Part shown: positions 1,273 to 2,635 of the stretch, piece by piece
How the letters are laid out: every line of letters begins with the position of its first letter
Position numbering within the stretch: the first letter of the stretch is position 1
DNA from: Candidatus Bathyarchaeia archaeon
GTDB lineage: Archaea > Thermoproteota > Bathyarchaeia > Bathyarchaeales > DTEX01
Length of the DNA stretch: 34,609 bases
Assembly (NCBI GenBank): GCA_038882715.1
Contig: JAVZNR010000013.1
Coordinates: 1-34,609 of the forward strand
Reading direction: 5' to 3'
Program-made: the position numbers and the translations under genes
The notes under the pieces: generated by a model
What the model was told of the DNA's origin: nothing
The model's input: only the letters and a program-made list of their open reading frames with translations
Databases searched by the model: none

Positions 1273-2331
1273 CTATCCAGTTATCTTTATTTTTCCATCC
1301 TTCATTAGCTGTAGGAGTCTCTTTAATGCTTCAACCTCTTCGGCTGTGAAGTATAGGTCTTCCTCCTGGCTTGCGGCGGCTTCTATTGATAGGGCTAATC
1401 CGCATCTGTTGCATATCTTAGCCTCGATCGGATTTAGGAATCCGCATCTTGGGCAGGTCTTAGGCTTTATCATTGGCTCCTCATGCTCGGCCTCCCTTAA
1501 GCCGTATATGCCTAGAATGTCCTCGTCTATGTCTCTTCCGCTTAGGTGCACGTATATGCTGGGCATTCTGCTGCCCTGCCTCCAGCCGAAGTATGCGTTC
1601 ATCTGGGCTTCAGTCAGCTTCTTAGCCAAAAATGTTGCCCTGCTATGTCGGAATGCGTGTGGATGAACATTCTTTTTTAAACCGGCTCTGGCAGCTGTCT
1701 CCTTCAGTATCTTGCTGAAGGCCCCGTAGCTGAGTGGCTTGCCATCGTGGAGTCCGCAGAATAAAGGCGCGTCCTTCCTATTCTTTTTCGGATGGTTCTG
1801 AATCCAGTTTAATAAATAGGGCATGGAGGCTACGACAGGCACGCGCCTAGATCCCGTCTTACCCTTAAGAATTAGGGTTACATACTTCTCGTTAAACTGC
1901 GCATCCGCTATGCGCATGGATGCTAGCTCGCCTATGCGCGCCCCACTCTCATACAGCGTGATTATGAACGCCTTGTCCCTTATGTTTGAGGCTGCCTCAA
2001 CAAGGCGCATAACATCCTCCTCCGTTAGGAGCTCGCTCGGCAGCAGCGTATCCTTGCTCTTCAGGGTTGTTGTTATCCACTCCACCTCAGGCGGATACCT
2101 CTCCCCGTCCCCCTTCAACCACTTGAAAAACTTCTTTAAGACAACCTTATAATTCTGCTTTGTCCAAGCACTCAATCGCCTATTACGCTCAAGGCTGGCG
2201 ACAAGCCGCTCAACATCCTCCCTAGTAACCTCCATGAAATCCTTCTGCATGAAACGGCTTACTCTAGCAAGCGTCTGCACATACTTGTAAACCCTAGCGG
2301 GACACAAGCCAGTGCTGAAGCAGTACTCCAT
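1273..2331 (-). CDS. Tyrosine recombinase/integrase with C-terminal zinc ribbon; N-terminus out of frame
   Basis: Site-specific tyrosine recombinase that would cut and rejoin DNA at specific sites, for example to integrate or excise an element. The 352-residue frame holds most of an N-terminal SAM-like core-binding domain and a C-terminal catalytic domain. Catalytic residues are visible: the Arg in GARIGEL, the His and Arg of HPHAFRHSR, and the Tyr in SIYVHLSG. After the catalytic domain comes a four-cysteine zinc ribbon (CPRCG and CNRCG), common in archaeal integrases, and a short helical tail. The first ATG of this frame lies inside the core-binding domain. The missing N-terminal residues are encoded just upstream in another frame (2344-2459), so a one-base deletion has probably split the gene. 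It sits just downstream of tRNA-His, a typical integration site, and ends with TAG. Confidence 0.88.
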   Translation of the reverse strand: MEYCFSTGLCPARVYKYVQTLARVSRFMQKDFMEVTREDVERLVASLERNRRLSAWTKQNYKVVLKKFFKWLKGDGERYPPEVEWITTTLKSKDTLLPSELLTEEDVMRLVEAASNIRDKAFIITLYESGARIGELASMRIADAQFNEKYVTLILKGKTGSRRVPVVASMPYLLNWIQNHPKKNRKDAPLFCGLHDGKPLSYGAFSKILKETAARAGLKKNVHPHAFRHSRATFLAKKLTEAQMNAYFGWRQGSRMPSIYVHLSGRDIDEDILGIYGLREAEHEEPMIKPKTCPRCGFLNPIEAKICNRCGLALSIEAAASQEEDLYFTAEEVEALKRLLQLMKDGKIKITG

Positions 2332-2459: not shown

Positions 2460-2503
2460 AAATAATGCTGTGAAATGATTCTGTCCTTAAACTTTTGGTT
2501 GGA

Positions 2504-2635
2504 GGCCGCCGCCGGGATTTGAACCCGGCCTCCGGGCTCCACAGGCCTATACCACCAGCATTACTATGCATGGTGTCCGTACGCTACCAGGATCCGCGAC
2601 CTTAAACTGACTCATGTCTCTACGTTACGGCGGCC
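2504..2635 (-). tRNA. tRNA-His (anticodon GTG) with two introns at non-standard positions
   Basis: Read on the minus strand, G-1 (2635) and acceptor GCCGCCG (2634-2628) pair with CGGCGGC (2511-2505) and discriminator C73 (2504). The extra G-1:C73 pair is diagnostic for tRNA-His. The T-arm is CCGGG-TTCAAAT-CCCGG. The anticodon loop is CTGTGGA (2544-2538), anticodon GTG. A full cloverleaf needs two segments removed. About 28 nt (near 2592-2619) interrupt the D-loop between AG and CCTGGTA; the flanking D-stem ACGT/GCGT then pairs. About 30 nt (near 2547-2576) interrupt the 5' strand of the anticodon stem around 29/30, restoring CGGGC against GCCCG. The second segment is a strong hairpin with CACCA/TGGTG arms, as expected of an archaeal intron. 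There is no intron at the usual 37/38 position. CCA is not encoded. Exact splice points are uncertain because I could not draw a perfect bulge-helix-bulge. Confidence 0.8.

Follow-up and report, generated by a model that had tools for sequence, protein, structure and literature searches.

Here, we find that a locus in a Bathyarchaeia archaeon is, with a probability of about 0.95, a functional, single-copy and twice-interrupted tRNA-His(GTG) gene that would be spliced by the pathway set out below. It lies in the window, the whole 34,609-nt stretch of DNA analysed, which is contig 13 of a 1.64-Mb, 22-contig MAG. Sequence and comparison are the basis for the gene, both intron positions, the splice motifs, the uniqueness in the assembly and the enzyme genes. 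It is a well-supported case of a known kind of gene, and its lineage is one for which the literature searched gave no such case.

The interrupted gene

The gene occupies 2635–2504 on the minus strand, the strand of all its parts given below, with 2635 as G-1 and 2504 as C73. It reads G-1 GCCGCCG TA ACGT AG (28 nt) CCTGGTA GCGT A CGG (30 nt) GC CTGTGGA GCCCG GAGG CCGGG TTCAAAT CCCGG CGGCGGC C73. Exon 1 (2620–2635) holds the encoded G-1, the acceptor 5′ strand GCCGCCG, U8 A9, the D-stem 5′ strand and A14 G15; it pairs with 2504–2511 and is the same in intronless orthologues. Intron 1 (2592–2619) is the 28-nt insert in the D-loop at position 15/16. Exon 2 (2577–2591) supplies the D-loop CCTGGTA, the D-stem 3′ strand, A26 and C27 G28 G29, and is followed by intron 2 (2547–2576), the 30-nt insert in the anticodon stem at position 29/30. 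Exon 3 (2504–2546) comprises G30 C31, the anticodon loop CTGTGGA with its GTG, the anticodon stem 3′ strand, the variable loop GAGG, the T-arm, the acceptor 3′ strand and C73.

Taking both inserts out leaves a 74-nt tRNA-His(GTG) with G-1:C73 and a T-arm. Its D-stem is formed by 10–13/22–25 with one G-U, and its anticodon stem is full, C27 G28 G29 joining G30 C31 against G39–G43. The sequence-only reading had supposed that a cloverleaf appears only after removal of about 28 nt from the D-loop and about 30 nt from the anticodon stem, and the lengths are exactly 28 and 30 nt. ARAGORN calls tRNA-His(gtg) once both inserts are spliced out, and no gene for the unspliced and both singly spliced forms. 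The His identity that it proposed also holds, by G-1:C73 and the GTG anticodon, and, as it stated, there is no 37/38 intron, since the anticodon loop CTGTGGA is uninterrupted. Thus, the coordinates 2504–2635 and the two-intron structure are confirmed at the sequence level.

The variable-loop nt 48 counts against this reading. It is G, so 15:48, usually the Levitt pair, would be G:G.

The unspliced gene is called neither by ARAGORN nor by Rfam, nor by RF00005 over the genome. These tools would report histidine decoding as absent. A putative promoter, the TATA-box-like CTTAAAAG, lies at 2665–2672, 30–37 nt upstream of G-1, and A/T-rich boxes resembling CTTAAAAG are also upstream of the gene in three relatives (L043, L044 and L045).

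Splice motifs

Each intron has its predicted splice sites in bulges of 3 nt next to a central helix of 4 bp and an h′ helix, in the relaxed HBh′ form. The strict hBHBh′ form is seen in neither, as the exon-side helix h is missing in both and the central helix of intron 1 has a mismatch, which counts against the reading; for lack of h they are classed as HBh′ in the terms of PMC4090602.

The bulges of intron 1 are AG↓A and AT↓C. In its central helix, the exon strand ACGU of nt 10–13 (2622–2625) faces the intron strand GCGG (2594–2597) with three of the four pairs, C11-G, G12-C and U13.G, and an A10:G mismatch, where G023 and one G075 copy (G075b) have an A-U pair. Its h′ is GAC/GUC and covaries. 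The first three h′ pairs of D-loop introns average 2.86/3, compared with 2.26 after an exchange of 5′ and 3′ parts among species. Among 14 distinct introns, none of the 20,000 permutations reached the observed value, a count that is no formal probability because the intron sequences are related.

The bulges of intron 2 are GG↓A and AG↓G. The exon strand GUAC of nt 24–27 (2579–2582) pairs fully (4/4) with the intron strand GUAU (2549–2552), which is GUAC in the f3 genome G002, giving G24:C there. The 5-bp h′, CACCA/UGGUG, is followed by a GCAU/AUGC hairpin. All five h′ pairs form in 6/6 introns tested, and the permutation test (664/20,000) is weak because these introns vary little.

Splicing machinery and proposed pathway

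The sequence-only reading had suggested a check for a heterotetrameric endonuclease, which is borne out at the gene level by a catalytic alpha and a non-catalytic beta chain. The two EndA genes encode alpha (L001, 189 aa) and beta (L002, 190 aa). The alpha chain has its nearest relatives among the alpha chains of A. pernix and of the Sulfolobus type, and it has the catalytic triad Y126/H134/K165 and a K43 aligned to A. pernix K44, the lysine of the Crenarchaea-specific loop that is required for broad specificity (PMC6379350). In the beta chain, Ser stands where M. jannaschii has the catalytic His, which is thus lacking. The subunit genes thus have the features of a broad-specificity (alpha-beta)2 EndA, with the quaternary assembly predicted. 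An RtcB gene is present, and Thg1 was not detected in the genome search, consistent with the gene-encoded G-1.

Very probably, judging from these genes and motifs, the cell excises both introns with the known archaeal tRNA-splicing enzyme. The gene would be transcribed from its own promoter, and each intron with its flanking exon nucleotides would fold into the relaxed bulge-helix-bulge. The (alpha-beta)2 EndA would then cut between bulge nt 2 and 3, at AG↓A...AU↓C for 15/16 and at GG↓A...AG↓G for 29/30. RtcB would ligate the exons, and RNase P would keep the encoded G-1. We infer transcription, cleavage, ligation and charging of the tRNA alike.

Orthologues and the history of the introns

The pattern TGTGRN{13,14}GGTTCRANNCC has a match in 86 of the 121 genomes of the order, and about 80 tRNA-His genes were read; those of G063 (L179) and G016 (L184), with a D-loop variant outside the script's pattern, were read by eye. 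In several relatives, purL is close to the gene. Across other MAGs, orthologues that share this gene neighbourhood have zero, one or two introns. The interruptions are not due to chance, because these orthologues share the same insertion points and a near-identical mature tRNA. Families f1, f3 and f5 have in common the acceptor GCCGCYG, the variable loop GAGG and the C73-TCCA end, and form one clade (100/100) in the PurL tree of 31 rows.

The D-loop intron is 18–32 nt long and always at 15/16 in the three families. It is present in 9/9 tRNA-His genes read from the window's genus (eight genomes), in g2, g4 and g5, in one of the five g3 genomes read, in f3 G002 and in f5 G019. G072, G043, G039, G078 and G012 lack it and read straight through as GTAACGTAGTCTGGYAGCGTACAGGC. 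Most simply, the comparison suggests that it is ancestral in the f1/f3/f5 clade and was repeatedly lost (g3, G012).

The anticodon-stem intron, 21–30 nt long at 29/30, occurs in the present genome (G000), one of the two copies of G075, G063, G059, G035, G031, G016 and f3 G002, and is missing in G023 and most orthologues. The two-intron g1 genes of G000, G075 (copy a), G059 and G031 have G28:C42 where intronless genes have A28:U42, a compensatory change. As G023 lacks the intron although its sister G035 has it and the pair sits within a group of carriers, clean loss does occur, at least once by this phylogeny. Within the same overall explanation, a tentative history with somewhat lower than even odds is that f3 and genus g1 each acquired the intron independently, as opposed to inheritance followed by many losses. 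The PurL tree sets f3 G002 apart from g1, and g2–g5 and f5 members are without the intron, yet A-ACCA...TGGT-GTA-AG is common to the introns of f3 and g1, which suggests common descent. The clean loss in the nested G023 and the infirm placement of G002 in the tree also speak against a double gain.

Alternatives to the functional gene

The same comparisons bear on whether the locus might be a decaying tRNA-His pseudogene with random insertions, histidine being decoded by another tRNA. Standard finders do miss it, and an integrase gene is 170 nt away; integration beside a tRNA can leave pieces of it behind, as it apparently did at other loci of the genome. However, each exon nucleotide is kept or compensated across the clade, which disfavours decay, and the BHB pairing is preserved in both insertions. 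The locus is also the only tRNA-His detected: the tRNA-His pattern has a single match in the genome, and a survey for T-arm plus CCA, read by hand, gave 42 places made up of named tRNAs, three apparent att fragments and three chance matches, leaving no other tRNA-His and no intact CCA-encoding tRNA without an assignment. A second complete tRNA-His, the observation that the sequence-only reading held against itself, was thus sought by both searches and not found, although one could sit in the missing part since the MAG is about 95% complete. We consider the pseudogene extremely improbable.

Only slightly less improbable, and still highly so, are real introns whose true splice points are shifted by at least 1 nt, so that the mature tRNA differs from the one proposed. 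A 1-nt shift of intron 2 to 28/29 is possible and the central helix of intron 1 is imperfect, but the shift leaves the product unchanged, and intron 1 has essentially a single placement in the alignment to intronless orthologues. A functional tRNA-His with G-1:C73, GTG and a sole copy is what the data favour. A recent transposition of the introns into this gene was also considered and rejected, as blastn-short found no match between them and other tRNA loci of the genome. Nor did any split tRNA-His fragments turn up.

The C73-U-CCA end

The gene does not encode a direct C73-C74-C75-A76 end. It encodes C73-U-CCA, with TCCA (2500–2503, minus strand) right after C73 and thus an extra U before the CCA. 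As a departure from the standard His 3′ end, this too counts against the reading of a functional tRNA-His. This end is kept in every f1/f3/f5 orthologue, whereas the flank beyond diverges. Trimming of the trailer and addition of CCA could still yield a mature C73-CCA end. A register with a 7-bp acceptor, a 6-bp T-stem and U73 fits f1, f3 and f5, where nt 48 is G; it is not preferred because other lineages with the C-U-CCA end have C48.

Certain further families of the phylum also have C-U-CCA or C-A-CCA tRNA-His genes. Within one genus, G250 has the extra nucleotide and G198, G224, G229 and G375 have C-CCA, among the members read.

Host lineage and known systems

The best PurL matches (72–88%) are all Bathyarchaeota MAGs, with SKW196 at 88% and the JZ bins at 80–87%. 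The source organism is, by this marker, a member of Bathyarchaeia and outside Thermoproteales. The near-relative bins presumably come from hot springs. Hot springs are also the setting of PMC8407382.

Multiple non-canonical BHB introns in tRNAs are known from Thermoproteales (Pyrobaculum and Thermoproteus), as treated in two reviews (PMC4090602, PMC4033280) and counted in PMC8450103. The present gene is similar in its several short introns, non-canonical sites including 29/30, relaxed HBh′ motifs and an (alpha-beta)2 EndA, here predicted from genes. It differs in the host and in that 15/16 is absent from the intron sites listed in the available text of PMC4090602, where 29/30 is among them. 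The introns that were taken as informative about lineage are indeed present, but they are a weaker marker than implied because the host belongs to Bathyarchaeia and not to Thermoproteales. For the same reason, the contribution lies in the lineage, the mechanism being known already.

The intron gain polymorphism at tRNA-Thr(GGU) of Caldiarchaeum subterraneum (PMC3293823) is alike in that orthologous tRNA loci vary in intron number with a recombinase gene nearby. In contrast, it is different species across a deep clade that vary at tRNA-His, with clean loss documented. Standard archaeal tRNA-His shares G-1:C73, GTG and the gene-encoded G-1 (PMC10100707 for G-1), and differs by lacking the extra U between C73 and CCA and the G48 in the variable loop.

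No report of such twice-interrupted tRNA genes in Bathyarchaeia was found in the literature searched, which covered few subscription papers. With this gene, Bathyarchaeia join the archaea that have multi-intron tRNA genes with relaxed BHB motifs, here together with an alpha-beta EndA that has the crenarchaeal loop, a pairing that fits the idea of tRNA disruption and endonuclease type evolving together. Moreover, the orthologues with zero, one and two introns, several in one syntenic locus, make a natural series for intron gain and loss.

Permuted tRNA-Arg and other disrupted tRNAs

The genome also has a circularly permuted tRNA-Arg(GCG) at C7:52334–52499 (L038, L142), in the order 3′ half, CCA, 19-nt spacer and 5′ half. 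It has a strict BHB at 37/38 with the central helix CTGC/GCAG, bulges GG↓A and AA↓A and a 9-bp h′, and ARAGORN calls tRNA-Arg(gcg) from the rejoined halves. The permuted order is found in 13 genomes (genus g1 and three of g3; relatives L143–L154) with spacers of 9–34 nt, and the first six h′ pairs form in 78/78 cases. The normal order is seen in G051 and G035, and no normal-order tRNA-Arg(GCG) appeared in the T-arm survey of the present genome. Known archaeal permuted tRNAs, the Thermofilum iMet and Tyr, join at 59/60 (PMC3218864), unlike the 37/38 here.

This permutation and the C73-U-CCA end look more surprising than the interrupted tRNA-His. It is slightly better than an even bet, from these genes, that this Bathyarchaeia clade is a second archaeal hotbed of tRNA disruption comparable to Thermoproteales, combining the doubly interrupted tRNA-His, the genus-conserved tRNA-Arg(GCG) permuted at 37/38 and a tRNA-His with an 8-bp acceptor and U-CCA. 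If so, RNase P would retain G-1 without Thg1, and the histidyl-tRNA synthetase must accept the extra nucleotide.

By hand reading, many other tRNAs of the genome have non-canonical introns (L032, L033, L034, L035, L036, L037 and L039), apparently three in tRNA-Trp(CCA) (L036). RF00005 and the T-arm/CCA survey gave no gene in the genome for the Tyr(GTA), Lys(CTT), Val(TAC), Val(CAC), Pro(TGG), Thr(TGT), Ser(GGA) and Leu(CAG) tRNAs, some of which may be disrupted beyond the reach of these searches or fall within missing parts. In family f6 (L193, L228, L130, L132), several genomes have a second tRNA-His-like gene with a non-adjacent 5′ acceptor strand, possibly a further disrupted or partial copy.

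Integrase gene and possible mobile elements

A tyrosine integrase with a C-terminal zinc ribbon lies at 1273–2331 (minus strand), just downstream of tRNA-His. It is absent beside the gene in most relatives, and G075 has a decayed C-terminal integrase remnant directly after its tRNA-His (L177, about 2526–2760). The tRNA-His as its att site was rejected, and an integrated element there is unproven, because no second tRNA-His 3′ end was found and most relatives lack the integrase.

Duplicated, att-like tRNA 3′ ends occur elsewhere in the genome: Pro at C4:124338–131365 (L232), Gly-like at C1:6408 (L229) and Leu-like at C19:2467 (L230). The 3′ end of L040 (C4:131342), at first a candidate split-tRNA half, matches that of tRNA-Pro(GGG) at a distance of 7 kb. 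We interpret L040 as an att copy, and likewise L229 and L230, in which a common upstream element-like sequence is fused to different tRNA 3′ ends. The window also has a CRISPR-like array at 110–674, with ten copies of GTCTTAATAACAAAGAACTAAAAG spaced by 54–63 nt.
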